Origin: Mariniflexile litorale
Lineage (GTDB): Bacteria; Bacteroidota; Bacteroidia; Flavobacteriales; Flavobacteriaceae
DNA: 64,000 nucleotides
NCBI RefSeq assembly: GCF_031128465.2
Contig: NZ_CP155618.1
Location: 567,501 to 631,500 of the forward strand
Direction of reading: 5' to 3'
Each line of letters begins with the position of its first letter. Position 1 is the first letter of the stretch. The notes under the pieces are model-generated. The model had not been told where the DNA came from. It searched no databases and saw only the letters and a list, made by a program, of their open reading frames with translations. The translations under genes were made by a program, and so were the position numbers. Of the stretch, positions 26,074 through 64,000 are shown piece by piece.

Positions 26074-26140
26074 GTCTTAAATAATTTTAGTTAACATTGG
26101 ATTAATGCTATAAAATTCGTTATAGACTTAAATACAAACG

Positions 26141-36896: not shown

Positions 36897-36937
36897 TTTT
36901 ATTTAATAGATAACGCATTCAAAAATTTTGTCGGTTT

Positions 36938-38971: not shown

Positions 38972-38985
38972 CTTTTTTTGAAAGA

Positions 38986-39969: not shown

Positions 39970-39985
39970 GTATTTTTTATGTTTT

Positions 39986-42151: not shown

Positions 42152-42312
42152 TTTAAAAATTGTACTTATCAATATTATATAATTCTTTTATTCTTAAAAA
42201 CAAAAACGTTTGCTTTTAAAGTGTCTAAACAACACTTTTCAAATATAAAGCTATTATTACTAATATTAAATGAACTTATCACTTTTAACTTTAGCTTATG
42301 TGTTTTCCTATA

Positions 42313-44739
42313 TTATTTTAACTCTAAAGTAACCTCAGCGGACTTTAACCAAGGACTAGTAAATTCTATATTTATAGACGCTCCTGAATTTCCATTTGCT
42401 TCAATATAAGCCAATATCCCCCCATGAAAAACACGTTGTTTATTATCGGTATAATCCGTCATATCCGTATTATTACCAGCTTCAAGCCCCAATAATCTAC
42501 CAGAACCTTTTATTCTACATGTAATTTCGTTATCGGCTAGTTTTACGGGTATTCCATCTTCATCTACAATTTCTACTCGTACTTGGGCCACCCCTCTATT
42601 TTTATCTATAAGCTTGTTTTCTAATTTAACTTTTATAGCTTCAGGACGTTTGGATGATGATATTTTGTATCGGCTAATCGCTTCATTTTTATCATTTAGT
42701 CCTACTGCTTCTAAGGTTCCTGATTGATATGGAATATCCCAAGATATAATGCCTGTTTTTTCATCATATGCTTTAGCTTCTCCTACAAGGTTTCCATTGA
42801 GTTCAAGTCGTGCTTTTGATGCATTGGTGTAACAAACAACACGAATGTTTTGTGCGTCATCATAATTCCATAATGACCATGCATCTTTTGATAATCCACC
42901 TCTATCGCTATGACGTATCGGGTAGGTTCCAAAATAAATCATTGGTTTTTGAGACCAAAGAGACTGCCTAAAATAGCCTCTTGGTTTTATATTACCCGAA
43001 AAATCTACCAATCCAGAATAAAACCCTCTAGAAGGCCATCGTCCCGATTCACCTAAATAATCAATTCCAGTCCATAAAAACTGCCCAAAAATATGATCGT
43101 TATTTTTTACAGCTAACCACGCTTCCATATCGTGCCTGTTTTCACTTCCATAAATAACCCGGTTTGGGTATTTTTCATGGTCGGTTTGGTATTTACTTTC
43201 TGTGTAATTATAACCTGTAATATCTAAAGCACTTGGATATGCTGTTTCATTAGACATGGCTACACCTGCTAATCCTGCCGTTGTTGGACGTGATTTATCA
43301 TACTTTTTAACTGCTGCAACCAATCGTTTTGCAATAGCACCTAAACGCATGGCATCTGGTGCCTCTTTTTTATAACCGCCATATACTGCTTGAGAAAAAC
43401 CTGTATCGCCACCTCCATCTAATACGGGATGTGAATACGGATCGTTTGGATAGTCGACCTCATTGCCAATACTCCATGCAAAAACAGACATGTGGTTTCT
43501 ATCCCGACGTACTAAATCTTCCATATCTTTTTCCGCCCAATCGGCAAAAATATCATAACTCCCTTCAAATCCAGGGGCACCTGAATTCCAGCCTTCTAAC
43601 CATTTCCGTTTAGGAAATTCCCATTCATCGTAAGCTTCGTTTAAAACCAACAAACCTAATTCGTCACATAAATTATAAAAATCTGGTGCTTGTGGATTAT
43701 GACTGGTACGTATGGCATTTACTCCAATGTCTTTCAATGTTTGCAATCTGGTTTTCCAAACTTCGCGAGGTACTGCTGAACCTAACACTCCTGCATCATG
43801 GTGTAAACAAACACCTTTTAGTTTCATCCAGGTATCATTAAGCGCAAACCCATTATTAGCATCAAAAGTAAATTTACGAAAGCCTGTTTGAGTTCGTGTT
43901 TCATCAATAACTTCATTTCCTTTAAAAACAGTCGTTTTAAGTTGATAAAGGTTGGGCGTTTCAATACTCCACAATTTAGGTTTTTTAACTTTAAGGTTGG
44001 TTGTAATTTTATTAGATGCTTTTGAAGCTACATCTATTTTACTTGTACTTTTAACTACTAATTTTCCGTTACTACCAAACAACTCATTTACAACCGTTAA
44101 AACTTCTTTAGAACTAGAATCATTTTCCAATTCAACTTCTATATTTAATATTCCTAAGTTCTTTTTAACTTCTGGATAGGCATATACGCCCCACTCAGAA
44201 ATATGGACTGGGTTTGAGTAAATCAACCACACATTTCGATATATACCAGACCCTGAATACCAACGAGAATCAGCACTTTTACTATGATCTACTCTAACTG
44301 CAATAATATTAGTTTCGCCATAATTAATATAAGGAGTGGCATCAAATGAAAAGGAGATGTATCCATTAGGACGCTTCCCTAACGATTGCCCATTAATAAA
44401 TACTTCACTTCTATTATAGATCCCTTCAAAATACAGGTATACTTTTTCTCCTTTTTTATTTGAAGGGACATCTAATGTTTTTCTATACCAAGCAATTCCT
44501 CCAGGCAAATACCCTGTGGCACTGGCTAAAGTAGGGCTCAATTGAGCTTCTATACTCCAATCGTGCGGAATGTTTACAGACTTCCATTTTTCATCATTGT
44601 ATGTACTTGACTTAAAATTTTGGTTATCTTGAAGCATGAACTTCCAATCTTCATTGATTTTTTTTGAATTTCCGAAAGATATCTGCCCTAAAACAGATAA
44701 ATGAGAAAGGACTAAAATTACAAATAGACTTCTTTTCAT
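42313..44739 (-). CDS. GH2 glycosidase (beta-galactosidase / beta-glucuronidase group)
   Basis: About 808 residues from the ATG at 44739 (MKRSLFVILVLSHLSVLGQ is the signal peptide; an upstream in-frame ATG at 44751 adds four residues). GH2 domain order: jelly-roll sugar-binding domain (GIAWYRKTLDV, YLYFEGIYNRSEVFING), Ig-like domain, TIM barrel with NAIRTSHNPQAPDFY, then C-terminal DUF4982-like and Ig domains (ASKARLELNGNLVGEA). Acid/base is E427 in WSIGNEVD and nucleophile E533 in YGSENRHD. Periplasmic. Substrate could be beta-galactoside or beta-glucuronide; the operon argues for galactan side chains. Confidence 0.87.
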   Translation of the reverse strand: MKRSLFVILVLSHLSVLGQISFGNSKKINEDWKFMLQDNQNFKSSTYNDEKWKSVNIPHDWSIEAQLSPTLASATGYLPGGIAWYRKTLDVPSNKKGEKVYLYFEGIYNRSEVFINGQSLGKRPNGYISFSFDATPYINYGETNIIAVRVDHSKSADSRWYSGSGIYRNVWLIYSNPVHISEWGVYAYPEVKKNLGILNIEVELENDSSSKEVLTVVNELFGSNGKLVVKSTSKIDVASKASNKITTNLKVKKPKLWSIETPNLYQLKTTVFKGNEVIDETRTQTGFRKFTFDANNGFALNDTWMKLKGVCLHHDAGVLGSAVPREVWKTRLQTLKDIGVNAIRTSHNPQAPDFYNLCDELGLLVLNEAYDEWEFPKRKWLEGWNSGAPGFEGSYDIFADWAEKDMEDLVRRDRNHMSVFAWSIGNEVDYPNDPYSHPVLDGGGDTGFSQAVYGGYKKEAPDAMRLGAIAKRLVAAVKKYDKSRPTTAGLAGVAMSNETAYPSALDITGYNYTESKYQTDHEKYPNRVIYGSENRHDMEAWLAVKNNDHIFGQFLWTGIDYLGESGRWPSRGFYSGLVDFSGNIKPRGYFRQSLWSQKPMIYFGTYPIRHSDRGGLSKDAWSLWNYDDAQNIRVVCYTNASKARLELNGNLVGEAKAYDEKTGIISWDIPYQSGTLEAVGLNDKNEAISRYKISSSKRPEAIKVKLENKLIDKNRGVAQVRVEIVDEDGIPVKLADNEITCRIKGSGRLLGLEAGNNTDMTDYTDNKQRVFHGGILAYIEANGNSGASINIEFTSPWLKSAEVTLELK

Positions 44740-44845
44740 TATTAAAAACATATCGATGGTTAATTAGTTATTTTACAGAATGCCTACGGGCTTTTTAAAA
44801 GCTATATGACCTATTCCTGCTCACATTTTATTAATTATTTCTCTT

Positions 44846-46012
44846 TTAAAACGTATTTAAATCCCACTTATCTTGCCATTTTAATACTGGTTTTCCATTC
44901 ATCATATTTATTGGAAGCCATACATAGGTGCCATCAATAGGATTTCTGGGTTGCCACCTATCAGCCATAAAAATAAAGGCATCTTCTTTTCCTTGAACTG
45001 GTAAAATAAAAGTGCTTTGTGAACGAAATGTAAGATGCGCCTCTTTTCCAATACTCGGGTTACCTAAAGGCTGCCATGGCCCCCAAATGGATGTTGATTT
45101 AAACGAACGGGCTTCATTAGGATCCCAGCCTGTACATCCTGAAGTTATCATATAATAAATCCCATCCTGTTTAAAAATTGCGGGAGCTTCATTATGACCA
45201 GTGGGTGCTACGGATATCCATTTATCTGTAAAATCTAAATAATCATCTGTAAGTTCTGATATGTGAAGTGTCAAATTTTCTTCTGAGGCGTGTATGTGAT
45301 ATGCTTTTTCATCGCTATCTACAAATACAGTCATATCTCTTGACATCTGCCCTTTTTCAAAATCTCTTTGTATTAGCATACCGTTTTTTACAGAGGCTAT
45401 CCATTCGGCTGACCAATCTTTTAATTCCTTTTTATTCCAGGTTCTTAACTTCTTCTGCTGGTAAGTGAAATTTAATGGCCATACTCCTTTATTGGGTCTA
45501 AATGATTTTTTAAACTCAAAAGGTCCTGTTGGAGTATCGCTTGTAGCTACAGCTGTTCTTGCTGCATTATAGCCTTGGTTTTTTAGTTCTAAATGAAACC
45601 ATAAAACAAACTTGCCTGTTTTTTTATTATATACCACTTTTGGACGTTCTATAACACAGCCCTTAGTTATTTCTGAATTAGGATCTTTATCTACTTTTAA
45701 AACGATGCCTTCGTTTTTCCAATTATACAAATCTTTAGAAGTATAACAGCTTACTCCTTTTAACGAAGTATTTCCGCTTCTACCAGATGCTTTATATTCT
45801 CCATACCAATAATAAACACCATTATAATAAAGAACACCTCCTCCATGAGCATTAATGTGTATCCCGTTTGTATCTGTCCATTTACTGCCAGGAACAAAAG
45901 ATTTATGCTTATTATTATTTTTATAATTTAAACTAGATAACAAAAAAAAAGCAACACCTAAAAGACTAAATATTAAAACAATTAAGGTGGTTGACTTGCT
46001 CTTTAATTTCAT
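44846..46012 (-). CDS. GH43 enzyme resembling exo-beta-1,3-galactanases
   Basis: About 388 residues from the ATG at 46012, preferred to 46048 because it gives a hydrophobic N-terminal signal/anchor (STTLIVLIFSLLGVAFFLLSSL). The propeller starts with DTNGIHINAHGGGVLYYNGVYYWYGEY; from memory a conserved AHGGG next to YYWYGE marks the GH43_24/GH43_34 branch, which includes exo-beta-1,3-galactanases that lack the usual base Asp. Other conserved parts: VIERPKVVYN, SRDMTVFVDSDEKAY and GHNEAPAIF with the candidate acid Glu. Subfamily assignment is tentative. Supports a beta-1,3-galactan backbone as substrate. Confidence 0.8.
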   Translation of the reverse strand: MKLKSKSTTLIVLIFSLLGVAFFLLSSLNYKNNNKHKSFVPGSKWTDTNGIHINAHGGGVLYYNGVYYWYGEYKASGRSGNTSLKGVSCYTSKDLYNWKNEGIVLKVDKDPNSEITKGCVIERPKVVYNKKTGKFVLWFHLELKNQGYNAARTAVATSDTPTGPFEFKKSFRPNKGVWPLNFTYQQKKLRTWNKKELKDWSAEWIASVKNGMLIQRDFEKGQMSRDMTVFVDSDEKAYHIHASEENLTLHISELTDDYLDFTDKWISVAPTGHNEAPAIFKQDGIYYMITSGCTGWDPNEARSFKSTSIWGPWQPLGNPSIGKEAHLTFRSQSTFILPVQGKEDAFIFMADRWQPRNPIDGTYVWLPINMMNGKPVLKWQDKWDLNTF

Positions 46013-46080
46013 ATTATTTTTTATTTGTACAGCTCCAAGCGATACCATACTTATTTCTAAAACTTTTTTTATAAAATGAG

Positions 46081-47289
46081 TTATTGTTTTTCTAGAAAAC
46101 GATACATTTCACATGAAGCTAATAAAAATGCTCCCACACCAAAATCTGCAGTAGAATTTCTATTGACAACTTGCCCAGGGATCGCTTTTTCACCAATGGG
46201 CTGTACATAACCTACTGCTCCATTATCTTGAAGCGCCGTGTTTGTTAGGTAATCCCATGATTTTATAGCTACCGGCAAATAGCTGTCTTTATCTAATATA
46301 TCGTTGTTTATCCCCCATAAAAAACCATAAGTAAAAAAGGCTGTTCCACTAGTTTCTGGTCCTGGTGCATGTGCTGGGTCTAAGATACTACGGGTCCAAT
46401 ATCCGTCTTGTTGTTGAGCATCCGCTAATGCTATCGCCATATCTTTAAACCTATTAATGTATTTTTGTTTATACGTTGCATTGTCGGGCATATCTTGGAT
46501 GATTTTTGCATATCCTGCAAAAACCCATCCATCTCCTCTAGCCCAAAAATCTTTTTCACCATTTGCACTTTTATGTTTTGGATACACATATTTAGCATCA
46601 CGATAATATAACTTTGATTCAGCATCATACATGATACTATTTGCATAGGTAAGATATTCTTCTAATTTCTCTAAGTATAACTCATTTCCTGTTAGTTTAT
46701 AAAGTTTAGTCATTACGGGCATTACCATATATAAACCATCTGCCCACCACCAATAATCATTTTTATTCGTACTCATTTGATATTCCATAACTTCGCGGGC
46801 ACGCGCTATTTTAGATCCGTCTTTTTCATCTGAAAAATTATATAGATCAATATAGGTTTGAAAACAAATTTGCCAATCGCCAAACAAAACATATGCATCG
46901 GTTTCCCCATAACTGTATCTCCATTCGGACTTATTTTGAGATTTAGCTCCCATCCATTGGTTTTTATTTGCCCAAGCTAACGAATAATCAAAATAATCCT
47001 CATTATCAGTTACTGTATAAGCATCCATATTCCCTGTATGATATGCTGATACATGCCAAAAAGCATTACCTGGATTAGGATGATTTTCTTGCCAATAGGT
47101 ATTAACTTTGTTGATAATTGAAATAACGTCTTCTTTAGAATCTTCTATTAAGATAGAACCCTCTTCCTCTATTAAGATTTCTTCCTTTAATGGCTCAGTT
47201 TCGCTACTTGAACTAGCACTTCCCAAACATCCGTTGAAAAGCAAACACATTAGAATAATTCTTGAGAAAAACAATACTTTTAAATTCAT
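46081..47289 (-). CDS. GH105 unsaturated uronyl hydrolase lipoprotein
   Basis: Removes delta-4,5-unsaturated uronic acid from lyase products, in the periplasm. It has 402 residues, lipobox at C21 (LFNGC), then the alpha6/alpha6 barrel. Signatures: WRYSYGETDAY, WWWADGLYMVMPVM with the candidate catalytic D184, KDFWARGDGWVFAGYA, and HAPGPETSGTAFFTYGFLWG. The presence of both this and a GH88 means a beta-eliminating lyase must act in the pathway; the BNR_4 proteins are the only candidates in view. The acidic stretch after the lipobox is a spacer, possibly a surface-export tether. Confidence 0.9.
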   Translation of the reverse strand: MNLKVLFFSRIILMCLLFNGCLGSASSSSETEPLKEEILIEEEGSILIEDSKEDVISIINKVNTYWQENHPNPGNAFWHVSAYHTGNMDAYTVTDNEDYFDYSLAWANKNQWMGAKSQNKSEWRYSYGETDAYVLFGDWQICFQTYIDLYNFSDEKDGSKIARAREVMEYQMSTNKNDYWWWADGLYMVMPVMTKLYKLTGNELYLEKLEEYLTYANSIMYDAESKLYYRDAKYVYPKHKSANGEKDFWARGDGWVFAGYAKIIQDMPDNATYKQKYINRFKDMAIALADAQQQDGYWTRSILDPAHAPGPETSGTAFFTYGFLWGINNDILDKDSYLPVAIKSWDYLTNTALQDNGAVGYVQPIGEKAIPGQVVNRNSTADFGVGAFLLASCEMYRFLEKQ

Positions 47290-47388
47290 AGTTTTTTATT
47301 CTGTTTTTTGTATCATTTGCATGATTGTTTTTACAAAATCAATTGATTTACACACAAAATGATATAGTAATACTAACTTATTTATACT

Positions 47389-48261
47389 TTATTTTTTATC
47401 TTTTTTATACACTCTTACATAATCAATAATAAATGGAGCAGGAAAATTGGTGTTTAAAAAATCGCCGCCATTCATGCCTCCAACAGCAAGATTTAATAAT
47501 AAATAATGTGATTGATGGAATGGATTTATATTTTTATTTGTTCCGTTAAATGTATTACTTAAATCGACTTCATTTAACAACTGATTATCTACATATAATT
47601 TAATGGCCTTTTCATCCCAATCCATTCTCCATATATGGAATTCGTTTGCCCAATTGTTATTATTAAAACTTTCAAGCAAATAGGTTTTACTATCCCAAAC
47701 AGGTTTCCATTTCTTATCTCCTTCCCAAGCTATATTGGCTAATATTTTGCCTTTATAAAACTCCATAATATCAATTTCACCATTTGCAGGCCAATTGTGT
47801 TCCACTCCTAAGGTCCAAAACGCTGGCCACAAACCCATTTCAACGGGTATTTTTGCTTTTATTTCAAACCTACCATATTTCCATTCCTGTTTATCTTTTG
47901 TGATTAAACAACTTGAAGTGAGATATATGGAATCCCGATTTTTACGCCAATCAGCAGTGCTTTTTGATATGAAATCGGGATTGGGTTTTGTTTCTTTTTT
48001 TACCTCAATAATTAAAAACCCATCTTTACAAACGGCATTTTCTTTTTGGTACCATTGTGCTTCTTCATTTCGAACAAATCCTGTTTCATAATTCCAGTTA
48101 TTCTTATTAGGCAATCCATCAACGTTAAATTCATCATTCCAAATTAGTTGATACCCTTTAACCTGAGTGGTATTGCTTTTTGATCCCGAACAACTCTTCA
48201 AGAAAAACAAAACAAAAACACTCACGCTATAAAAAACGCTTTTAATCCAAATTTTACTCAT
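47389..48261 (-). CDS. GH16 endo-beta-1,3-glucanase/galactanase-type lipoprotein
   Basis: A 290-residue lipoprotein (lipobox at about C24, FLKSC). It has a single beta-jelly-roll GH16 domain with the catalytic ExDxxE motif EIDIME at E162, D164 and E167, plus WNDEFNVDG near the start and GLWPAFWTLG before the motif. This layout is GH16_3-like, covering laminarinases and beta-1,3-galactanases. With the AHGGG-type GH43 and two GH2 enzymes, backbone cleavage of a beta-1,3-linked glycan is plausible. Ends 99 bp before the GH105 gene. Confidence 0.88.
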   Translation of the reverse strand: MSKIWIKSVFYSVSVFVLFFLKSCSGSKSNTTQVKGYQLIWNDEFNVDGLPNKNNWNYETGFVRNEEAQWYQKENAVCKDGFLIIEVKKETKPNPDFISKSTADWRKNRDSIYLTSSCLITKDKQEWKYGRFEIKAKIPVEMGLWPAFWTLGVEHNWPANGEIDIMEFYKGKILANIAWEGDKKWKPVWDSKTYLLESFNNNNWANEFHIWRMDWDEKAIKLYVDNQLLNEVDLSNTFNGTNKNINPFHQSHYLLLNLAVGGMNGGDFLNTNFPAPFIIDYVRVYKKDKK

Positions 48262-48308
48262 TATTATTATTTACATCCAATTCAATACACAACCTATTTT
48301 CTAAACTT

Positions 48309-52641
<4,333 letters not shown>

Positions 52642-52663
52642 TCTAAAAATAGATGTTAATATT

Positions 52664-54001
52664 TTAATTCTGGTATTGGTTTAAATTTTTAATTTGTAAA
52701 ACACGAACTTCTGAAGCGTTTTTTGAAGCGACACCTTCTCCATCAATCTGGGTTACTTTTTGAGTAAAAAGATGAAGTTTTTTTCTGCTGTTCCATAAGG
52801 CTGTATCATAATTAGGTTCCCATTCTCCAACACTTGTTTCACTTAAATCTTTTATTTCCCATCTTTGGGTTTTATTTAAAATGGTACTAGCCATAGATAC
52901 TTTATTTTGTCTTTCTAAATCACGAAAAAGAATATGAATGCTAGTGTACTTTTTGGAATCGTCAATCAAAATATCTGGACGGGATATTGGAATTTTTTTG
53001 GTTCCACCACCACCTAGAGTAAAAGCCGTTTTTCTAAAACCAGTATTTATTTTTTTCCAACTGTCATCTTCTAGGTAAACTATTTGATACTGTGGAATTT
53101 TATTTTCATTCCAATAGGTTACTATATATGGATTCCCATATTTATCAACAGTCATTGCTGTTTGATTTATGAGATTCTTCTTTTGTGGAATTCTCCAAGC
53201 ATATTCTGCTGAAGCTTGCGTAATGGGCAAGTTATATTTTTCACCTGAAGATTTTTTCCAAGTTTTTCCACCATCTTCAGATTGTGTATAGCATACATCG
53301 TGGTTGGTTTCCACGTCCCAGGTTTCTCTCCAAACCCACGAAATATGGACCACACCTTTGGCATCTACACAAGCTTGCCAATAAGCACTTCGCTTATTTT
53401 CACCATCTATAAGATTGTTTTGTAGTTGTGTCCATTTTTTATGGTTCAAATCATAAGTATTAATTACCAGGTTACCTCTACCTGATTGCCCTGAACGATA
53501 AAAAAACAGTAAGTTTCCATTTGGTAAATTGTAAAATTCGGGATAAGTTATTTTGTCTTCTTGAATACCTGTCATACTCATTTCTTCTTCTAACTCTAAA
53601 CTATAGGGTTGCTTACTTTTGGTATATTTAAGAGATGTGTTGTGATGGTCCCAACTTACATGTAAAAAACCATCCCCATCCACTGCAATACTAATAGTGT
53701 TATGGGCATCTTTTGTATGGCCTTTATAGGGTGTTTTTAAGAGTTTCCATTTTTGGGAATGCAGTGTCCGTTTTCCTAAAATCAAATAACTTTCTTGATC
53801 GTAATAGGCCACAAATTGATATTTCCCCGATGTAGTTAAAGCATTTTTTCTGAATTTTACAGTATTTACAGAATTACTACTCCAACCTTCTCCTATGTAT
53901 GAATACGATATATTTTTACCACAAGACATGGCACAAACAACACCTGTTATTAGTACAACATATCGTTTAAGTAATAGAACTATTTTATTCTTCCTCAACA
54001 T
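52664..54001 (-). CDS. BNR_4 beta-propeller lipoprotein (GH145 / PL24-PL25-PL42-like)
   Basis: A 445-residue lipoprotein (lipobox at about C27, CAMSC) made of one seven-bladed-type propeller with no appended modules. The signature TKDAHNTISIAVDGDGFLHVSWDHH lies near residue 95, split here as DAHNTISI and HVSWDHH; the DAH histidine is the candidate catalytic residue. The family covers ulvan lyases (PL24/PL25), rhamnosyl-glucuronate lyases (PL42) and the GH145 rhamnosidase of arabinogalactan loci. Adjacent GH88 favours a lyase. It is the first enzyme gene after the SusCD block and a hairpin. Shares the HN-x-DG-x-V-S pattern with the larger BNR_4 protein at 22792. Confidence 0.8.
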   Translation of the reverse strand: MLRKNKIVLLLKRYVVLITGVVCAMSCGKNISYSYIGEGWSSNSVNTVKFRKNALTTSGKYQFVAYYDQESYLILGKRTLHSQKWKLLKTPYKGHTKDAHNTISIAVDGDGFLHVSWDHHNTSLKYTKSKQPYSLELEEEMSMTGIQEDKITYPEFYNLPNGNLLFFYRSGQSGRGNLVINTYDLNHKKWTQLQNNLIDGENKRSAYWQACVDAKGVVHISWVWRETWDVETNHDVCYTQSEDGGKTWKKSSGEKYNLPITQASAEYAWRIPQKKNLINQTAMTVDKYGNPYIVTYWNENKIPQYQIVYLEDDSWKKINTGFRKTAFTLGGGGTKKIPISRPDILIDDSKKYTSIHILFRDLERQNKVSMASTILNKTQRWEIKDLSETSVGEWEPNYDTALWNSRKKLHLFTQKVTQIDGEGVASKNASEVRVLQIKNLNQYQN

Positions 54002-54071
54002 TACTGCTTTCCAATGTTTTAATTGGTTACCAATTATTTTTGTTATTAAAGTTCTATCTACTCTTTAAATT

Positions 54072-54110
54072 TTATTAAAAGCACAGCATAAAATGCTGTG
54101 CTTTTAATAA
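54072..54110 (-). terminator. 18-bp perfect hairpin between the SusCD block and the enzyme genes
   Basis: TTATTAAAAGCACAGCAT (54072-54089) pairs with ATGCTGTGCTTTTAATAA (54093-54110) around a three-base loop. It lies 22 bp past the stop of the last surface lipoprotein and about 70 bp before the BNR_4 start. It lacks a clean T-run beyond the arm, so it may be a partial terminator or an mRNA-stabilising processing point that keeps susCD transcript levels above enzyme levels. Confidence 0.65.
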
Positions 54111-54132
54111 ATAAATGACCACTATTTTTATT

Positions 54133-55374
54133 TTATAATTTCTCCAAAGAGAAGGATTCTATCACACAAAACCTACTTTGACCTTGTGTTGTGGAGATCC
54201 CAAAAGAAATTGTTTTAGTTTCTGTAAGTGTAAACATAATTTCAAACATATCCGGAGTCATTGTTTTCTCAAACCTTACAAACCCAAGGGTTGTTGGGTC
54301 TGTCTCTAACACCCCAGCATTTGAATCTGGAAGATCAGTCCCTTCTGCTACTGCTAGATAGACAAAATCTTCAGGAATGGTGTACCCACTATCGATACCT
54401 CCATTTTTAGCTCTTGGGCTACATTTAAATTTGTAGTTACCTGCTTCCAATGTAAGTGTTTGATATACTTTCCCATTCGTAATACTTGGAGACCCCCAAC
54501 CACTTTCTATGTTGAAAACACCCGTACTATTTGAGTCCCAGCCACCATAACCACCATGATTTTTAGCCGCATCATTAGTTGTCCAATCTGTTAAATTACC
54601 CCATCTTCCCGATTTATCCGAGCTAACAAAAGGTATCTCCCTATTCAACACATATACAAGCTCTACATCATCAACCGTTACATACTCTACATAAAAAGTA
54701 TCTATAGCTGTTTCATTGGGCAAAAATGTTGTACGATATTTAAATGAAGACGCTTTTTTGTAGTATGGTAGTGCACTTGGATCTGCTAAAGGAATCGTTG
54801 TAACATGTTCCTCATCATTAACATCTGTATACACATATTGAGTCCCCACTACACCCGTTGACAAATCGATATTACCATACTCTACCTTCAAGGTTGAATT
54901 TGCATCTCCTTTGTATACACTACTAGATAAATAAGGTCTATTATATAAAGACGCTTGATAATTATCGCCAAAAACAGATCCTATACTCGAGACTGCTATT
55001 GATATATTACCTAAAGCATCATAAGTACGAACCTCGAAACTATAAATATTTTCAGCTAAATTTTCAATAAAAACATCTAACGTGTCTACACCTTGTGTTC
55101 TTACTACTGGCACGACTATAGAATCTGAGCCGCTATTCCAAAATATTCTACATTCTGTTATTTTTGGATCGGAAATAAAAAGCCCTTTAACATTTACTCT
55201 ATTTCTACCTGAAAAAATATGCAAGGAGTCTATTTTTCCTGTATAAGATATTTCTCCATCTTTAAGAAACTCTTTATAGCCTTCGTCCATAGTAGAACAG
55301 GCACCAAAGCTTGTTGCTAGTGCTACTACTACAATAAATTGCAAATAATATTTTTTTAATATATATTTCATCAT
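54133..55374 (-). CDS. Surface glycan-binding lipoprotein candidate (DUF4998/DUF5013-like)
   Basis: About 413 residues from the ATG at 55374, chosen because longer in-frame starts overlap the upstream gene and spoil the signal; lipobox FGAC. The N-terminal half (MDEGYKEFLKDGEISYTGKI, then short Ig-like strands) is DUF4998-like; the C-terminal half (SDKSGRWGNLTDWTTNDA, and a jelly-roll-like end with TLTETKTISFGIS) is DUF5013-like. Such proteins in third or fourth position after SusD are commonly surface glycan-binding proteins. No catalytic motif. Last gene before the hairpin. Confidence 0.75.
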   Translation of the reverse strand: MMKYILKKYYLQFIVVVALATSFGACSTMDEGYKEFLKDGEISYTGKIDSLHIFSGRNRVNVKGLFISDPKITECRIFWNSGSDSIVVPVVRTQGVDTLDVFIENLAENIYSFEVRTYDALGNISIAVSSIGSVFGDNYQASLYNRPYLSSSVYKGDANSTLKVEYGNIDLSTGVVGTQYVYTDVNDEEHVTTIPLADPSALPYYKKASSFKYRTTFLPNETAIDTFYVEYVTVDDVELVYVLNREIPFVSSDKSGRWGNLTDWTTNDAAKNHGGYGGWDSNSTGVFNIESGWGSPSITNGKVYQTLTLEAGNYKFKCSPRAKNGGIDSGYTIPEDFVYLAVAEGTDLPDSNAGVLETDPTTLGFVRFEKTMTPDMFEIMFTLTETKTISFGISTTQGQSRFCVIESFSLEKL

Positions 55375-55399
55375 ACTGTTTTTTAATGTTAACATAAAA

Positions 55400-56599
55400 C
55401 TAATTTGTGTTACCGTAAACTTGAATTTCACCTATGGACATAGATCCTGTTGCTCCCCAGTTTTTAAGAGACTTAATTCTTAAATAACGAACTTTTGGCG
55501 CTGTAGGTTCAAATTCCCAGCTAAAGCCTGCATTAGCTGTTTGATAATCCTCATCTGTTTGTTGTCCAAAAGGCAAGCCAGATGGCTTAACAGCATTGTA
55601 TGCCCCCAGTTTAATCCATGTTTGATCAAGAGAACCATCTGGGTTTGGTGTTTCTGATCCCCAAACTTCAAATTCCTTTAAGTTTCCTTTATAGTAATAA
55701 CTTCTACCATTAAAATACTCAGGATAATCCCAAATAACAATCCGACTCATTTTAGCCAGTACCCCCGTATCTATAGTTACCGTGTGTGGCCCTGCTACAC
55801 TTCCATCTGTTAAAAAAACTTTTGGCCAATTCATGATCTCACCATCCCACATACCTGTTTCAATCGCTGTTGAATGCGTTTTGGTATCACCAGGTAAACG
55901 ATAGGGTTTATAACCTGATTTTGGTAAAGGTGTTTCTAATAGAGGTGTTATGGTTGTATATAAAGTATCTGTAGTATTTAACCATCTATCTCTAACTGTA
56001 AAGGCAAAATCATGCGGTTCAATAGTAAATGGTCTTATCGTTTTTTTAATTATATCTGTTGAAGTATATATACTTTTATCATTAATAACCCAATCCCCTT
56101 GATCGTTTTTTTCCATAAGTAATATTGAAAGATCGTAACGCAAGTTGTTAGTAGCTTTTATAGAAACTCCTCCAAATGTCGTTTCAATCAACAAACTTCT
56201 AAAAACATCCCATGCAGGAGATTCTTTAGGATTTACTGTAACTATTGTAGGCTCTGAAATGGCTTCACTTCTATTTACAGCATACAATTTAACGGTTTGC
56301 TCTTCTTCATTAAGAAACCCTTCTACTAAAAGTGAATTGTTATAGTAAGACGATTTAACTTCCATTTTACGACCAGTTGCAAGTGTATATTCTGCTTTTA
56401 CATATAGTAAATCTTGATCCTTTGGTAACGTGTAGGTTAGTTTAGACTTCCCTGGAAGATTTTCCACCATTACATTTTCTACAGGGTCTGGAGCAATCTT
56501 ATTATTTTCTATAGGTTCTAACTTGTTTTCGTCGCAACTAATAATTAATGAAGCAATTATGATTACGAAAACGCTTGTTTTTAACATTTTATATTTCAT
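55400..56599 (-). CDS. Surface lipoprotein candidate with DUF4959, DUF5126 and F5/8-type C-terminal domain
   Basis: A 399-residue lipoprotein (lipobox at about C22, LIISC). The opening DPVENVMVENLPGKSKLTY is typical of DUF4959, followed by an Ig-like domain (about 130-220) and a discoidin/F5-8C-like domain (about 225-399) with MSRIVIWDYPEYFNGRSYYY and a final RYLRIKSLKNWG and IGEIQVYG. F5/8C domains bind carbohydrate. Gene order SusC-SusD-this-next is a common surface module of Bacteroidota PULs. Role as glycan-capture protein is inferred. Confidence 0.78.
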   Translation of the reverse strand: MKYKMLKTSVFVIIIASLIISCDENKLEPIENNKIAPDPVENVMVENLPGKSKLTYTLPKDQDLLYVKAEYTLATGRKMEVKSSYYNNSLLVEGFLNEEEQTVKLYAVNRSEAISEPTIVTVNPKESPAWDVFRSLLIETTFGGVSIKATNNLRYDLSILLMEKNDQGDWVINDKSIYTSTDIIKKTIRPFTIEPHDFAFTVRDRWLNTTDTLYTTITPLLETPLPKSGYKPYRLPGDTKTHSTAIETGMWDGEIMNWPKVFLTDGSVAGPHTVTIDTGVLAKMSRIVIWDYPEYFNGRSYYYKGNLKEFEVWGSETPNPDGSLDQTWIKLGAYNAVKPSGLPFGQQTDEDYQTANAGFSWEFEPTAPKVRYLRIKSLKNWGATGSMSIGEIQVYGNTN

Positions 56600-56621: not shown

Positions 56622-58592
56622 TTACCATCCTAAATTTTGTACCAAATTAGGGTTTTGAATCATGGCACTCTCTGGTATTGGCCAAAAATAATCTCTTGGA
56701 GACACAAATATTTGTTGATATACTGATCTTGTTTGATAGTACCCCAAATCATCGGTTCCTTTTATATTCCAACCTGTTATAGGTGCGTTTAAAACAGAGG
56801 CTGCTGTTTTCCATCTTTTTAAATCCCAAAAACGTTGGCCTTCGAAAGCAAGTTCTATCAATCGCTCTTGCTGAATTATGTCTCGCAATCCAGTTTTAGA
56901 ATTTGGTTTTGTTGCATTTAAAGAGAAATTAGCCCACGAGTCTTCCACTCCTTGTAATCCAGCTCTCTCTCTAATCATATCTATATAATTATACACTTCT
57001 GGTGATGGCCCTTCTGCCTCGTTTAAAGCTTCTGCATACATTAAATATAAATCTGCTAAACGAATTTCTGGCCATGCATAATCTTTATATGTGGCACCTC
57101 CTTCTGTATTTGTTACTTGATTCCAATCTACTAATTTTTTTATAAAATAACCTGTTTCATTTGTATGAAAGGCGTGCGATGCTCCTGCATAATCTCCAAA
57201 TTTACCTTGAACATACCATACGTTTCCTTCATCGGATTTTGAAGGGCTATCGTATTTATACCAAATACCACCATCAAAACTTAAATCGGCATAAAAACGT
57301 GGTTCTCTATCAAAATTTAATCTGGCTGTTTTAAAACCTTCTTTGATATTAAAACGCTCTGCATTGGTTGCCGTACGCAACTCTTTTTCATTTGAAAAGT
57401 CTAATGTCTTGTCCTCATTAATGGGCACACCATTTTTAGAGTAAAACATTCGAGCTATTTTAAGTGGTGGTGAAAGAATTTTTCTAGCATCGTTATGATT
57501 GTGATTTGTAGCTAATGGAGGCATCGCTAATCGTTGTATTTCAGATGCTTTACTATTCGGATTTGCCCAAACAATCTCGGAATTCCATCTCTCACATACT
57601 GCTTGACGAATGCTCATTTGTGTCATTGTAGTAGGTGAAAGTGAAAAAGATGATGTTGGAAACACATATAAACTTTTACCATTTACTTCAGCCGACTGAA
57701 TGGCTTCAAGGGATGCATCTGCTGCTAGCTTCCATTTGTTTTCGTCATAATTAGAGTTAAACAATAATGTACCATCATTATTTTTTAAAGTAGCAAAATC
57801 TGCATTTCCATTAAATAATGGACTAGCCGCAATTAATAGTGTTTTTGCTTTTATACTTAATGCAATTGTTTTAGAAATTCTTCCTGCTTCTGTGGTTCTT
57901 ACTAGTTGATCTTCTTCAGGCAACTTTTCTACGGCTTTGTCTAATAAATCGACTATATATGTAACACAATCATCTACAGGTTGTCTTCTAACATTAATTT
58001 CATCTTCTGGTGCATCAATAGCACTGTTTTCTACTATGATAGGAATAGGCCCATACATTCTTAATAAATAATAATGGTAATAGGCTTTTAAAAACTCGAC
58101 TTCTCCAATCCAACGTTTTCTTTCTGAAGATTCAATATCTGGAACTTTACTAAGATCGTTAAGGTTTTCTAAAAAGATATTACAATGGCGTATCCCTACA
58201 AATAATCGGTATAAACTTCCTGGACCTCCTCCTGCGGAGCTTCCATCCCACACATTTAAATAAGGATTAGAAATTCTTTGATTCCCTCTTGCTATTTCAA
58301 AAGCATCACTAATTATAGACGTTTGGTAAGGAATCCACATTTCATCTCCAGAAAGCATCGCTATATTATAGTTAATGTCTCCATTTTTTGGTAAATATGA
58401 GTAGCAGGTAAATAAATATTTCTCTGCTTCATTCCTCAGTTTAAAGGCATTTTCTATAGTTGGTAAACTATCTGGAACCACATCAATGAATTCTTCAGAG
58501 CATGACTGCATTAACAACAGCCCTATAAAGAACAAAAATGCCGTATTAATAGATTTTTTTAATCTACCCATCTTTTTATTTTTATGTTTCAT
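56622..58592 (-). CDS. SusD-like lipoprotein of PUL 2
   Basis: A 656-residue SusD/RagB family lipoprotein (lipobox LLLMQSC). An in-frame ATG at 58571 is an alternative start seven codons later. TPR-like helices carry KRWIGEVEFLKAYYHYYLLRMYGPIPII, YAWPEIRLADLYLMYAEALNEA, YIDMIRERAGL and QERLIELAFEGQRFWDLKRW, all hallmark SusD blocks, and the C-terminus ends PNLVQNLGW. Longer than starch SusD, as usual for complex-glycan loci. 38 bp after the SusC stop. Binds the unknown PUL 2 glycan. Confidence 0.94.
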   Translation of the reverse strand: MKHKNKKMGRLKKSINTAFLFFIGLLLMQSCSEEFIDVVPDSLPTIENAFKLRNEAEKYLFTCYSYLPKNGDINYNIAMLSGDEMWIPYQTSIISDAFEIARGNQRISNPYLNVWDGSSAGGGPGSLYRLFVGIRHCNIFLENLNDLSKVPDIESSERKRWIGEVEFLKAYYHYYLLRMYGPIPIIVENSAIDAPEDEINVRRQPVDDCVTYIVDLLDKAVEKLPEEDQLVRTTEAGRISKTIALSIKAKTLLIAASPLFNGNADFATLKNNDGTLLFNSNYDENKWKLAADASLEAIQSAEVNGKSLYVFPTSSFSLSPTTMTQMSIRQAVCERWNSEIVWANPNSKASEIQRLAMPPLATNHNHNDARKILSPPLKIARMFYSKNGVPINEDKTLDFSNEKELRTATNAERFNIKEGFKTARLNFDREPRFYADLSFDGGIWYKYDSPSKSDEGNVWYVQGKFGDYAGASHAFHTNETGYFIKKLVDWNQVTNTEGGATYKDYAWPEIRLADLYLMYAEALNEAEGPSPEVYNYIDMIRERAGLQGVEDSWANFSLNATKPNSKTGLRDIIQQERLIELAFEGQRFWDLKRWKTAASVLNAPITGWNIKGTDDLGYYQTRSVYQQIFVSPRDYFWPIPESAMIQNPNLVQNLGW

Positions 58593-58630: not shown

Positions 58631-61600
58631 TTATAAATTAAGCAATATTCCAAAATTATATGTTGATTGTATTGGATAACCTAAACCATTTCCGCCCATT
58701 TCTGGATCCCATAATTTAAATTTACTAAATACTACTGGATTTGTGGTATTTGCATAAAACCTTAAGCCTGCTATCTTCATTTTTTCTAAAAAGCTTTCTG
58801 GCATATTGTATCCAAATTCAACACTTTTAAGTCTTAAAAAAGCACCATTTTTCATCCACCATGTAGATGTTTTGGTATTATTCTCAACAAGAGTACTACT
58901 TAACCTAGGCCAAAAAGCATAAGCATCTCTATTATCTTCAGACCAGTGATCGTCAGCAATAATTTTTAAAAGCCCATTTTGATCACCTCCTCTAATTACA
59001 AAAGGAGATATACTCGTTTGATTTCTATTAACATCATCGTTTGAATTAATAAAGAAAGAAGAACGCGCCGATCCTTGAAAGAATATACTAAAGTCAAAAT
59101 TTCTATGACCCACAGTTCCTCCAAAACCATATACAATTTCAGGTGAAGTTGGATAACCTATTGGAGCCTGGTCTAAAGCTGTAATAACGCCATCGCCATT
59201 TAAATCTTTATATTTAATATCACCTCCACCATACTCTCCAAACTGCTTTGGTGAATTGGCAGCTTCTAAATCGTCTACAAATAAACGTTCTGCAACATAA
59301 CCAAACGTTTGATTTATAGTTTGACCTTTTCTATATAGATAACTCAACTCTTCCGGATAGTAATTTTCATCATATTGCAAAACTTTGCTAGTCGCATACG
59401 TAAAATTACCCCTTAAATTGGTCCACCAATTATTTCCAAAATTATTATTATAAGTAATGGATGCATCTAGACCTGAACTTTCTGCTTCTCCAAAATTTGT
59501 TTGAGGAATTACTGAAAGTCCCAAAGTAGACCCTATATTAGAACGTTGTTGAAGAATCTCACTTCTATTTTGCTTAAACACATCTGCAACTAATGTAAAG
59601 GCATTGCCTATCTTTAAGTCAAAACCTAAATTTATTTGCGTTGATTTTTCCCAGCTTATTTTTTCATTAGCATATCTGGATATTGAAACACCATTACGGT
59701 AATAATCATTTTGTTCTCCAAAACTAGCACCATAAGAGGCACTATTTAAACTTACTTCAGATAAGTAAAAAAATCGATCTTGGGCTCTACCTATTTGATC
59801 ATTCCCTATCAAACCATAACTAGCTCTAAATTTCATTTCTTTAATGACATCTTTTAATGGCTCAAAAAACTTCTCATTAGAAACAATGTACCCAGCTGCA
59901 ACAGAAGGGAAGAAACCAAATCGATTATTTGGAGCAAATCGTTCAGAACCATTATACCCAAAATTCATTTCTAATAAATATCTTTTATCATATCCATAAG
60001 TAAATCTACCAGAAACCCCCATATTCCTACTTGGTAACGATAGTTGTAACTGTCCAGCATTACCTGTTTCGAAACTAGATAAAAGACCGATCAACAACCC
60101 AGAAACTTCATGCTTTTCAGAAAATGTTCTATTATAATTGAAGGCCGTTTCCATATACATTCTAGAGTCAAGAGATTTATCTCCCTCTGCATAATTTAAA
60201 TATTCTGTTCCTGTTGCTCCAATAGAACCTTCTCTCCCACTATTTATTAGCGTTAAATTAATTTTCTGAGTATCAGGGTTAATGTTACCTGAATAATAAA
60301 ACGGATTGTATTCTCTTGATAATCTGAAAAAGGAATACCTTCTTACATATGCCATGGCACGAGCTGTTAAGCCAGGAGTGATAGAGCTTAAGTCTTGTTT
60401 AAGTTCTAATTGTGTTTGAATAGTAGAAGCCTTACTAACATCATATCCTTTTACCATTTCTGCGTAAGGATTTGTAAGCAAGGTTGTACTTCCATTTCCT
60501 GTTATTGCCCCTCCAAAAAGTGGGTGTTCAATATATGGAAGTAATTCTGATGGATAAACGGCTGGAAAAGCTACTGGATTAGACCAAACGGCTTTATTAA
60601 AAATATTTGTTCCTCCATTAACATAATCACCTTTTAAATTGTAACCCCCTCGAGGTCCAGTGTAATCATCAAATTGCCCGTATAACCTAACAGCTAAATC
60701 GGTAGTAGAAGTCAGTTTTATATCGACGTTACTTCTAAATGAATAGTTTCTTAATTTTATATTACTATTAAAATCGTTTAGCTTGTCTACTTTTAAAACA
60801 CCATTGTCTACATTATAAGTACTAGCTACATAAAAACGGGCTTTTTCGCCACCCCCTCTAAGACTTAAATTATGAGAGCTGTTAACAGTAACATCTTGTA
60901 TTAGCGCATCAATCCAATTATTATTAGGATACAATATTGGGTCATACCCCGCGGCCGTTCTATCAATTTTTGTTTGTGAGTATGGTAATACTGCAATTGG
61001 GTCACGAGTTAAAGCAGCTTCGTTTGCCAAGTTCATATAGGTAACATTATCTGCAAACTGAAAATTTCTTGTATTGGTAGATACCTTCTGTTCTAATCTA
61101 TATCTAAATGTAAGTTTTCCTTCTACACCCGTTTTTGTAGTAATTAAAACCACACCATTTGCACCTCTAGCCCCATATATAGAAGCTGCAGAAGCATCTT
61201 TAAGTACTGAAAAAGCTTCAATATCATCTGGTTGCAAGCGTGCCATATCTGTGGTAGTCGATTCTATACCATCTATTAAAATTAATGGATTTACTTTACC
61301 AGAACCAAATGATCCCAAACCTCTAATAAAGAAATCGGAATTATCAGCACCTGGCTCTCCAGATCGTTGGTAGGCTATCATTCCAGAAATTCTACCAGCC
61401 ATCATGGTTGTTAAATTACTAGATGGCCCTTTAATTTCTTTAGGATTTATAGTTGTAATAGCACTCACAAGACTTGTCTTTTTTTGCGTACCAAAACCTA
61501 CAATCACCACTTCATCCATCGCTTCAATATCTGGCACTAGCTTAATATTAAAGTTTGTTTTTTGTCCGATAGTTATATTCTGTGTACTATACCCCATAAA

Positions 61601-61921
61601 GGATATTACTAGTATTTTACCATTACTTGGAACGGTTAATTCAAAGTTTCCATCAAAATCAGTAGCAGCACCTCTTTGTGTGTCTTTAACTGAAATACTG
61701 ACACCAGGCAATGGAATTCCGTTCTCATCAACTATAATCCCTTTTATTCTTTTTTCTTGAAGTATGTTTTTTACCTCAAAATGTCCTTTATCTATAATAC
61801 TATTTGCTTTTGCTTGATACTGACCTGCAAAAACACTTAAAAAAAGTATTATTAGTTTAACCTTTCGGTCTAAATGAAAATTAGAGAAGTATATCCCCTT
61901 TATCTTATTTAATTTTCTCAT
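58631..61921 (-). CDS. SusC-like TonB-dependent transporter of PUL 2
   Basis: A 1096-residue outer-membrane transporter. The N-terminal signal region is long (hydrophobic core around VKLIILFLSVFAG). A carboxypeptidase-regulatory-like domain follows at about 58-135 (IKGIIVDENGIPLPGVSISV), then a plug with DDIEAFSVLKDASAASIYG and GARGANGVV, and the barrel ending FGILLNL. First gene of the long operon; the 428-bp divergent gap to the HTCS carries operator copy C 181 bp upstream of the ATG. Specificity follows that of the enzymes downstream. Confidence 0.95.
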   Translation of the reverse strand: MRKLNKIKGIYFSNFHLDRKVKLIILFLSVFAGQYQAKANSIIDKGHFEVKNILQEKRIKGIIVDENGIPLPGVSISVKDTQRGAATDFDGNFELTVPSNGKILVISFMGYSTQNITIGQKTNFNIKLVPDIEAMDEVVIVGFGTQKKTSLVSAITTINPKEIKGPSSNLTTMMAGRISGMIAYQRSGEPGADNSDFFIRGLGSFGSGKVNPLILIDGIESTTTDMARLQPDDIEAFSVLKDASAASIYGARGANGVVLITTKTGVEGKLTFRYRLEQKVSTNTRNFQFADNVTYMNLANEAALTRDPIAVLPYSQTKIDRTAAGYDPILYPNNNWIDALIQDVTVNSSHNLSLRGGGEKARFYVASTYNVDNGVLKVDKLNDFNSNIKLRNYSFRSNVDIKLTSTTDLAVRLYGQFDDYTGPRGGYNLKGDYVNGGTNIFNKAVWSNPVAFPAVYPSELLPYIEHPLFGGAITGNGSTTLLTNPYAEMVKGYDVSKASTIQTQLELKQDLSSITPGLTARAMAYVRRYSFFRLSREYNPFYYSGNINPDTQKINLTLINSGREGSIGATGTEYLNYAEGDKSLDSRMYMETAFNYNRTFSEKHEVSGLLIGLLSSFETGNAGQLQLSLPSRNMGVSGRFTYGYDKRYLLEMNFGYNGSERFAPNNRFGFFPSVAAGYIVSNEKFFEPLKDVIKEMKFRASYGLIGNDQIGRAQDRFFYLSEVSLNSASYGASFGEQNDYYRNGVSISRYANEKISWEKSTQINLGFDLKIGNAFTLVADVFKQNRSEILQQRSNIGSTLGLSVIPQTNFGEAESSGLDASITYNNNFGNNWWTNLRGNFTYATSKVLQYDENYYPEELSYLYRKGQTINQTFGYVAERLFVDDLEAANSPKQFGEYGGGDIKYKDLNGDGVITALDQAPIGYPTSPEIVYGFGGTVGHRNFDFSIFFQGSARSSFFINSNDDVNRNQTSISPFVIRGGDQNGLLKIIADDHWSEDNRDAYAFWPRLSSTLVENNTKTSTWWMKNGAFLRLKSVEFGYNMPESFLEKMKIAGLRFYANTTNPVVFSKFKLWDPEMGGNGLGYPIQSTYNFGILLNL

Positions 61922-62349
61922 ATTAAGATTAGTTTTGTTTAATTCTACTTTATTGATTAGCTAATTTACTTGTGTTAGAGTATCAACTCTTCGTTTCAAT
62001 TTAATTGTAGTGTTTTCCTCATATTTTTTTTAGTTTAGTTTTTAGTTTAATAAAATGGTTAAGTTTAGTTTTCAAATTTCATAGAAAACTAAGACAGCAT
62101 TAGGATACAAATCAGCAAAATAAAGGGTACAATACGACCATTTTAAGTAGAAAAGCAAAATATAATCATATTTTGAGTAAATTGCTGAAAAATAGCTGTG
62201 ATATTATCTTTTTAGAATGGGGCTCTTTAAAGGTTTTCAAATAATAAGCATTCCATTATTTGACTTATACTTGATATCCTTTCACCTTCTTTTTGTAAAA
62301 TACAATATCTGTTTTTCACATTAATCAACTTGTCTAAATTTTATTATAC
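61922..62349. other. Divergent regulatory gap between susC-2 and the HTCS gene (428 bp)
   Basis: Non-coding and very AT-rich. Holds operator copy C (62103-62141). On the susC strand a TAGTTTTC (plus 62083-62090), close to the Bacteroidota -7 consensus TAnnTTTG, lies just downstream of the operator with a TTTG inside the proximal half-site 17 bases upstream. The susC leader would then be about 160 bases. No promoter for the HTCS was convincing. Confidence 0.55.
62103..62141 (-). promoter_or_regulatory. Candidate HTCS operator, copy C (upstream of susC-2)
   Basis: On plus, GGATACAAA (62103-62111) and GGGTACAAT (62125-62133) repeat directly with a 22-bp period and end in ACGACCAT (62134-62141); spacer TCAGCAAAATAAA. 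It lies 181 bp upstream of the susC start and 208 bp upstream of the HTCS start, the classic place for an HTCS-bound activator site. Confidence 0.75.
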
Positions 62350-64000
62350 ATGCCAAAAAATCACCTTCTTATTATTTATTTATTTATACTTAATATTTTA
62401 GGAACCTTTTGCTATGCTCAAAATGTCAACTCCAACACCTCTATTAATGAAACTAATAATTTAAAATTTGAGTCTTTTAATGTTGAATCGGGTCTTTCTA
62501 ATAATATTATCACAGGTCTCGCTCAAGATTCTTTAGGTTATATTTGGGTTTCTACAGTCGACGGACTTAACCGGTATAATGGAAATGAATTTTTAACTTT
62601 CAAAAAAGATAATGACTTAGAAAATAGTTTAAACTATAACTTCATTTTAGATATTAAGTTTAACAATAAAGGAAACTTAATGATTGTTACAGGTTTTGGA
62701 CTTAATATTTACAATCCTAAATCTGAATCTTTTGACCTCATCGATCAATCAAAGGCTTTAATAAGTAACAGTTTAAGCTGCCTAGAGTTTGGTAAACAAA
62801 ACGAATTGATATTTGGCGTATATGGTAATGGACTGCAATTTCACAATCCTGACCAACCTCATAAAGGCATAACACTAAGGCATCATAGTAATGATAAAAA
62901 CACGATCTCTTCTAACAATATTTCTGATATAAAATTACAAGGAAAAAACACCGTATGGGTTTCAACTTTCGATAATGGTCTTAATAAAATAGATTATACA
63001 ACTAAAAAGGTTGAACGTATATTATTAGGTAACCATTTAGATCAAGAAATAAATAATATCAGCTGCTTATTTTTAGACAAGGATGATAATTTATGGATTG
63101 GAACAAAAGCAGGAATTATTATTTTAACCAAAGAAAATGAAAAACTACATCTAAGTTCCAATACCAACAAAAACAATAAATTAAGTGATAATGAAATTCT
63201 TTCGTTTGAGGAAGATGATTTTGGTAATGTATGGGTTGGAACTCAAAATGGAGGTCTAAATATTGTAAACCTAAATCTATATAGGTTAAATAAAAAAGCT
63301 ATTAAAACCTATATGCCTAATCAAAATGGCAACGACCTTTTAAGTGCCACCATTTCTGTTATTATGAAAGATAAAGATGGTAGTATGTGGATTGGAACCA
63401 ACCATGGTTTAAACTATGTTAACCCAAAAGAAAATCCTGTTAGATTACTTCAAAAAGAATTTAGCAAAGATCCAAACTCCGTTAGCGACGATAAGATTCG
63501 AGCTCTGGCTGAACGTTTTAATGGAAACATATGGGTAGGTACCGATGGTGGGGGTTTAAATCTTTACAACCCAACACAAGAGAGTTACAAATACTTTAAG
63601 CACATAGAAAATAATCCTTCTAGTCTTTCTAACAACCATGTATCTGCGGTTTTAGAAGATAGTAAAAAACGGGTATGGGTAGGCACTTATAGAGGCGGCC
63701 TAAACCTTCTAGACACACTAAGGGGCACCACTAAAAAATACTTACAGGGTTCTGTAGAAAATGGTTATAAAGTAAACGTAATATTTGAAGATACTCATAA
63801 AAACATCTGGGTTGGCACCAATAGAGGTGGTTTATACCGCTATGTAGAAAGCCATGATGCGTTTAAATATATTTCTATACTTGGAAAAATGGACATTCGC
63901 GATATTACACAAGACGAATATGGGTATTTATGGATGGCTACATATGGGAATGGTATTTTTAAATATAATGAAAAGAAAGCATCTTTTGATTTTTACGATA
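62350..64000 (+). CDS. Hybrid two-component system sensor (HTCS), N-terminal part only
   Basis: I translated about 550 codons from the ATG at 62350 with no stop before the window ends. It has a signal peptide (MPKNHLLIIYLFILNILG to CYAQ), then two-component-regulator propeller (reg_prop) repeats: GLAQDSLGYIWVSTVDGLNRY, DKDDNLWIGTKAGI, EDDFGNVWVGTQNGGLNI, KDKDGSMWIGTNHGLNYV and more, each about 45-50 residues. This is the periplasmic sensor of HTCS regulators, which continue with a membrane segment, histidine kinase, receiver and AraC-type HTH; those parts lie beyond the edge. Divergent from susC-2, so it is the expected regulator of PUL 2, sensing an oligosaccharide product. Confidence 0.92.
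   Translation, partial: MPKNHLLIIYLFILNILGTFCYAQNVNSNTSINETNNLKFESFNVESGLSNNIITGLAQDSLGYIWVSTVDGLNRYNGNEFLTFKKDNDLENSLNYNFILDIKFNNKGNLMIVTGFGLNIYNPKSESFDLIDQSKALISNSLSCLEFGKQNELIFGVYGNGLQFHNPDQPHKGITLRHHSNDKNTISSNNISDIKLQGKNTVWVSTFDNGLNKIDYTTKKVERILLGNHLDQEINNISCLFLDKDDNLWIGTKAGIIILTKENEKLHLSSNTNKNNKLSDNEILSFEEDDFGNVWVGTQNGGLNIVNLNLYRLNKKAIKTYMPNQNGNDLLSATISVIMKDKDGSMWIGTNHGLNYVNPKENPVRLLQKEFSKDPNSVSDDKIRALAERFNGNIWVGTDGGGLNLYNPTQESYKYFKHIENNPSSLSNNHVSAVLEDSKKRVWVGTYRGGLNLLDTLRGTTKKYLQGSVENGYKVNVIFEDTHKNIWVGTNRGGLYRYVESHDAFKYISILGKMDIRDITQDEYGYLWMATYGNGIFKYNEKKASFDFYD

Follow-up and report, generated by a model that had tools for sequence, protein, structure and literature searches.

Gene content of the locus

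The window, a 64,000-nucleotide stretch of the 4.52-Mb Mariniflexile litorale genome (G000), contains a PUL in which an HTCS gene and susC-2 are transcribed divergently, with susD-2 next to susC-2 and a 39-bp element, site A, between the two divergent genes (Table 1). Site A lies 181 bp upstream of susC-2 and 208 bp upstream of the HTCS gene. Beyond susD-2, the same-strand run encodes two DUF proteins, a GH145-like protein (BT3686 family), two GH88-like proteins, and two GH2 proteins, as well as GH16, three GH43, DUF2264, FG-GAP/VCPO-like, and DUF4861 proteins; the susC-2 run is putatively a single transcript. Copies B and C of the element lie 134 bp upstream of a multidomain gene, whose family we take to be GH128, and 67 bp upstream of a BNR_4/T9SS gene, respectively.

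Table 1. Coordinates of features in the window
Feature	Position	Strand	Remark
HTCS gene	62350..64000	+	1376 aa; extends past the window end to ~G000:C1:633980
Site A	62103..62141	+	two 16-bp half-sites, period 22 bp
−7-like box GAAATTTG	62073..62080	-	22 bp from promoter-proximal end of site A
susC-2 (TonB-dependent transporter)	58631..61921	-	first gene behind site A
susD-2	56622..58592	-	
Remaining same-strand gene run behind site A	31517..56599	-	
Site B	31227..31265	+	same 39-bp element
−7-like box GAATTTTA	31197..31204	-	offset 22 from site B
GH128-type (Glyco_hydro_cc) multidomain gene	26359..31092	-	behind site B
Site C	26141..26179	+	same 39-bp element
−7-like box GAATTTTA	26111..26118	-	offset 22 from site C
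BNR_4 / Big_2 / T9SS-tail gene	22792..26073	-	behind site C

The HTCS product was recognized by its full domain set in one polypeptide (Reg_prop repeats, Y_Y_Y, HisKA, HATPase_c, Response_reg, and HTH_18, all above the Pfam cut-offs), by its susC/susD neighbor, and by an S/CHIP motif, present as SHIP in its REC domain. This REC motif has been described for regulated HTCSs, with an inhibitory REC-HTH contact (PMC11253607). The preliminary description placed an HTCS gene beside its copy C; such a gene does adjoin one copy, that at 62103 (gene start, 62350), but the statement is wrong if C is the copy at 26141. The ORFs scanned from 18032 to 42172 (≥100 aa), those near sites B and C included, contained no regulator gene.

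The GH145-like protein scored 626 bits, under the 700-bit BT3686 equivalog cut-off. Arabinogalactan-protein loci have been reported with GH2, GH27, GH43, and GH145 enzymes (PMC8406133), which the window set (GH145-like, GH43, GH2, GH16, and GH88-like) partly resembles; the arabinogalactan PULs of Maribacter are unlike the window PUL in composition (PMC11036162), and the available text of that paper does not contain the word "regulator." Our guess is that the substrate consists, perhaps, of arabinogalactan-type side chains. An odd domain mix for a glycan cluster is found in one 1,341-aa PUL protein (32871-36896), which has FG-GAP/UnbV_ASPIC repeats, a T9SS tail, and a vanadium-chloroperoxidase-like part (DUF6851 and VCPO_2nd). 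Elsewhere in the window, a separate starch/maltose-type locus (1995-20803; GH97, GH65, MFS, LacI, SusC/D/E/F, and alpha-amylase) is without a strong copy of the site.

Anatomy and significance of the 39-bp element

The aligned window copies agree beyond the two GGGTAYAAW blocks by which they had been recognized. The element comprises two 16-bp half-sites, approximately GGGTAYAAAWCRRCMA, at a 22-bp period; the earlier consensus, with a 9-bp half-site, was too short. The ACRRCCAT tail, which occurs as ACGACCAT, ACAACCAT, and ACAGCCAT in the three copies, closes the second half-site, as TCRGYAA closes the first. The tail, the positions of the copies (62103, 31227, and 26141), the 22-bp period, and the common orientation (all on the plus strand, upstream of genes on the minus strand with starts at 61921, 31092, and 26073) were confirmed as first described. 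GGGTAYAAW was exact in four of the six half-sites and inexact in the other two, with mismatches to the earlier pattern numbering zero at 31227, one at 62103 (GGATACAAA), and two at 26141 (GGTTGTAAA).

Used as a search pattern with up to three mismatches, the earlier consensus matched the window three times (1.04 expected; at least three matches in 10 of 100 shuffles). The genome-wide scan proposed in the preliminary description gave 58 matches, compared to 68 for a backwards control, and the pattern was rejected as a genome scanner because it performed at chance level at three mismatches. This result with the short consensus is what an origin of the repeats in chance or AT-rich background would predict, an explanation that is scarcely credible given that it is contradicted by the performance of the full-length matrix against shuffles and by the cross-species recurrence and fixed −7 geometry described below. 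A matrix built from 16 sites of other genomes (E to T) and none from the window genome scored the window sites at 42.8, 39.7, and 38.8 and a fourth site, D (see below), at 42.2, compared to 10.2 for the runner-up place in the rest of the window and 26.9 for the highest maximum in 200 dinucleotide shuffles; the test is not wholly independent, since its 16 sites, like every site outside the window genome, came from models begun with sites A to D. When the DNA upstream of 22 HTCS-clade genes was matched to itself with no motif model, lag 22 was the best of 28 (14.41; runner-up, 12.64). When the comparison covers all 39 bp, spacer and tail included, the window sites are real and beyond chance.

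A fourth site and the extent of the candidate regulon in the genome

Site D (G000:C1:3923943-3923981) was first spotted as a three-mismatch match to the earlier consensus in which the spacer matched too. It lies 46 bp upstream of the listed start of a gene for a 1,171-aa protein, in the same orientation. This protein carries an F5/8 type C domain and a T9SS tail, with weak matches to BNR and fn3, and it also looks like a secreted glycan-active protein. Site D is 3.3 Mb from the PUL along the contig; on a circular chromosome, the opposite path would measure ∼1.2 Mb. A model built from sites A to D (R1) scored these four sites at 41.5 to 49.4 bits in the window genome, the score of D thereby including D itself, and the next match at 14.1 bits. 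R3, a model of 20 sites plus the −7 region, likewise returned only sites A to D at E ≤ 0.01, all four being within its training set. Strong matches were therefore not confined to this PUL, as the preliminary description had considered they might be. Among 10 other genomes there was no orthologue of the site-D gene and just one 36% homologue (in G007), so that the conservation of site D could not be checked.

Ten equal weak R1 matches (12.4 bits) also occurred in the window genome, at G000:C1:648350-665916 and elsewhere; five of them fall within 648 to 666 kb at steps of 3.6 to 5.6 kb, which suggests that a DNA element is repeated downstream of the PUL.

A search for intrinsic terminators between 22500 and 33000 gave three candidates (3.8 in shuffles), none of them in the gaps between units, and the earlier division into three separate transcripts thus rests on the promoters. 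An E. coli-type promoter scan gave 39 sites, fewer than in shuffles (51.3). The window gaps scanned within the susC-2 run held no extra site, for example, before the GH145-like gene; that gene has its own site in G001 (a same-genus genome), in G160, and, weakly, in G355.

Geometry of the −7-like box

Flavobacterial sigma-A promoters have a −7 box, TAnnTTTG, at −12 to −5 (PMC9723704), and a TTTG-type box is likewise found here downstream of each site. Of the 22 sites examined, the best TAnnTTTG-like match of 20 fell at a distance of 21 to 22 bp from the element's promoter-proximal edge, with ties broken towards 22. With one base of jitter allowed, the mean box score observed at nine sites was reached in 0 of 1,000 shuffles of the sequence downstream of the sites; with the jitter removed, offset −21 (4.44), inside the element, came first and offset 22 second (4.11). 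In 12 held-out sites, offset 22 scored 4.83 of 6, compared to a mean of 2.0 (standard deviation, 0.37; maximum, 3.17) for 125 other offsets. In contrast to the published consensus (PMC9723704), the first T is present in only six of the 20 boxes at offset 21 to 22 and is replaced by G, C, or A in the rest; the boxes are mostly NAnnTTTG, and the three window boxes are without the consensus T at −12. With the −7 box set at −12 to −5 (PMC9723704), the element would span approximately −73 to −35. The arrangement points to class II-like activation, in which a protein would replace the −33 element.

Conservation in a same-genus genome

In G001, the three highest R1 scores were 30.1, 25.4, and 20.1 bits (sites E, F, and G), followed by 13.7 bits. 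Site E lies upstream of a run of orthologues of GH2 (75%), susC-2 (73%), and susD-2 (79%). Site F precedes the orthologue of the GH145-like gene (69%), followed by those of GH88 (74%), GH2 (73%), and DUF2264 (77%). Site G occupies the gap separating the HTCS orthologue (70%) from a divergently transcribed susC, which is a different gene from the orthologue of susC-2. Orthologues of several genes of the window PUL, those covered by this comparison, are thus found at three chromosomal places with one site each. The counterparts of the site-C gene (70% orthologue) and the site-B gene (41% homologue) had no site of their own in G001 (best scores, −2.1 and −3.7, respectively); both are on the same strand downstream of site E, within its gene run.

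Site E adjoins a 47%-identical HTCS paralogue, not the 70% orthologue, and for this reason the partner of the element may be an HTCS clade rather than one protein. The window genome, too, has a paralogue of the HTCS encoded at 62350 (G000:C1:377.3 kb; identity, 47% overall and 57% across the HTH), and this protein might read the four sites, or both paralogues might do so and place the PUL under two sensors. The paralogue-type HTCS beside the susC-2 orthologue in G001 fits such an arrangement, as do weaker related sites before the paralogue's own susC (18.5) and a GH128-like gene (19.2). We nevertheless consider it unlikely: the strong sites of the window genome, at 45.8 to 51.2, stand far apart in score from the paralogue's sites, and the HTCS adjacent to site A is the one encoded at 62350. 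The paralogue's candidate operators, at 377 kb and 364 kb (L086:10989 and L093:14008), have a similar first half-site and a diverged second one.

Recurrence in other genera

The HTCS-site-divergent susC layout recurs across species and genera. In Robertkochia solimangrovi (Flavobacteriaceae; HTCS, 60%), a site in the HTCS-susC gap scored 36.8, compared to 10.5 for the next place in the locus; in G035 (HTCS, 56%), the corresponding values were 22.0 and 8.8. Robertkochia was the one useful locus of the contig scan, from which a Clostridia MAG locus (22% identity) was dropped.

A model of nine sites (R2; A to I) was scanned against 397 family genomes, with G001 outside the draw. By our own cut-off for HTCS clade membership (E ≤ 1e-220), 16 of the 397 had a member. 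R2 matched 12 of the 397 at E ≤ 0.003, namely, 7 of the 16 genomes with a clade member and 5 of the 381 without; without the three genomes that had served for training (G000, G035, and G423, the last being Robertkochia by its coordinates), these counts were 4 of 13 and 5 of 381. The nine-site matrix was then applied to 20-kb stretches around matches or HTCS genes in G106, G160, G187, and G355. Sites in the right orientation preceded GH2 orthologues (72 to 75%), GH145-like genes (63 to 66%; weak in G355, 14.8), a GH128 homologue (48%, G160), and susC or HTCS genes. One match, in G216 (25 bits), was rejected as false: it is in an open frame and in the wrong orientation, has no −7 part, and occurs in a genome with no HTCS-clade member. 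Weak matches were also seen in clade genomes at G160:C65, G160:C11:318407, and G355:C22, the last among open frames.

R3 was run on 25 chosen genomes and matched at E ≤ 0.01 in 13 of the 14 clade genomes (the exception being G054) and in 4 of the 11 others. Five of the six clade genomes outside the training set had a match at E ≤ 0.0013, compared to 0.0017 for the best of the 11 others, and five of the seven matches in those six genomes were directly upstream of an HTCS gene. When HTCS-clade loci were scanned, the best place fell within 1.5 kb upstream with a score of at least 15 in 14 of 23 (4 of them training sites); in the other nine, no clear upstream site was found. Conservation was thus found for susC-2/GH2, the GH145-like gene, the HTCS-susC gap, and, in G160, the GH128 homologue; in G001, it did not extend to sites B and C.

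In G106, three tandem half-sites at 22-bp steps (L146:9780-9840) precede the GH2-susC-susD orthologues, with a second, full site ∼230 bp away, also upstream. The same genome has an HTCS-clade gene with two internal stops (L130; G106:C1:4077254-4080307), a probable pseudogene, next to intact sites; another clade member there has no internal stop.

The element could, in principle, belong to a different regulator, such as the AraC-type gene (L021:6000-6560; HTH_18) that lies ∼0.5 kb past the HTCS gene, and the window genome has 37 HTH_18 matches to choose from. The sites recur, however, next to HTCS genes of the clade of the window HTCS across species and genera, and the published HTCS pattern is a direct repeat at ∼21 bp (PMC3878776), which makes this assignment very improbable. 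The 16-bp units at 22 bp found here agree with that form of HTCS operator (direct repeat of two 12- to 16-bp sites ∼21 bp apart). Relatives with the same HTCS family mostly carry the element before matching genes; hence, it is very probably the landing site of this HTCS. The element, its fixed geometry relative to the −7-like box, its recurrence before orthologues, and its link to the HTCS clade were all established computationally.

Discussion

The candidate HTCS regulon proposed in the preliminary description is supported by the models, by conservation, and by the −7 geometry, and it now has four members, with binding inferred. We put the probability at roughly four in five that the 39-bp element is the operator read by the HTCS encoded at 62350, one sensor activating four units. 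Each element would serve as operator for a promoter that depends on an activator. The HTCS would sense a periplasmic glycan fragment as its presumed ligand, phosphorylate its own receiver domain, and release the AraC-type domain at its C terminus. The two 16-bp half-sites would then each be occupied by one of these domains, on one face of the DNA, 22 bp being two helical turns. The promoter-proximal half-site would end 22 bp before the −7 box, at about −35, such that the bound activator would take the place of a −33 element and recruit sigma-A RNA polymerase. In this way, a single sensor may turn on the susC-2 run, the GH128-type gene, the BNR_4 gene, and the unlinked gene for the secreted F5/8-BNR protein.

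We lean, by a narrow balance, towards a broader picture: a rigid promoter module conserved among Flavobacteriaceae genera, in which a pair of 16-bp HTCS half-sites at a 22-bp period is followed 21 to 22 bp downstream by an imperfect −7 box and a −33 element is not obvious; a glycan-utilization regulon that, through this module, can split into unlinked loci and yet remain one regulon; and paralogous HTCSs that share or partition a motif family. The searchable operator-plus-promoter model predicts scattered enzymes for the same glycan without susCD linkage, as exemplified by the 3.92-Mb gene here and by the distribution over three places in G001, and it yields a small promoter set for testing.

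To our knowledge, HTCS operators are known mainly from gut Bacteroides, and no flavobacterial HTCS operator appeared in the titles or abstract openings among the literature matches listed. In the Bacteroides thetaiotaomicron HTCS regulons described by Ravcheev et al. in 2013, the sites are direct repeats of 12, 14, or 16 bp at a mean distance of 21 bp, are inferred to be read by a dimer on one DNA face, and lie before operons of susCD and enzyme genes (PMC3878776). Those regulons and the window regulon both have some targets far from the PUL; the present example differs in its occurrence in Flavobacteriaceae, its half-site of approximately GGGTAYAAAWCRRCMA, its period of 22, and its −7-like box at a fixed 21 to 22 bp (PMC3878776). 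REC-HTH fragments of the HTCSs BT4124 and BT4663 bind susCD promoters, those of bt4114 and bt4662 (PMC11253607), and a fragment of BT0366, the arabinan HTCS of B. thetaiotaomicron, shifts promoter DNA of its own PUL (PMC5061871). BT4124 and BT4663 resemble the window protein, with its SHIP, in being single-chain HTCSs with the conserved S/CHIP motif; their binding was measured, as was that of BT0366 (for another glycan and species), whereas binding by the window HTCS is predicted (PMC11253607, PMC5061871).

The carrageenan regulon of Zobellia galactanivorans comprises a PUL and distal genes, among them a susCD pair, all controlled by the AraC-family regulator cgrA (PMC5698469). Like the window regulon, it is flavobacterial, directed at a glycan, and dispersed. 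In the available text of that report, cgrA is called a transcription factor of the AraC family, with no description of it as an HTCS, and the regulon is defined by RNA-seq and mutants with no operator given (PMC5698469). The control scheme itself is already known from Bacteroides (PMC3878776), and the window regulon is a new, well-supported example of it.
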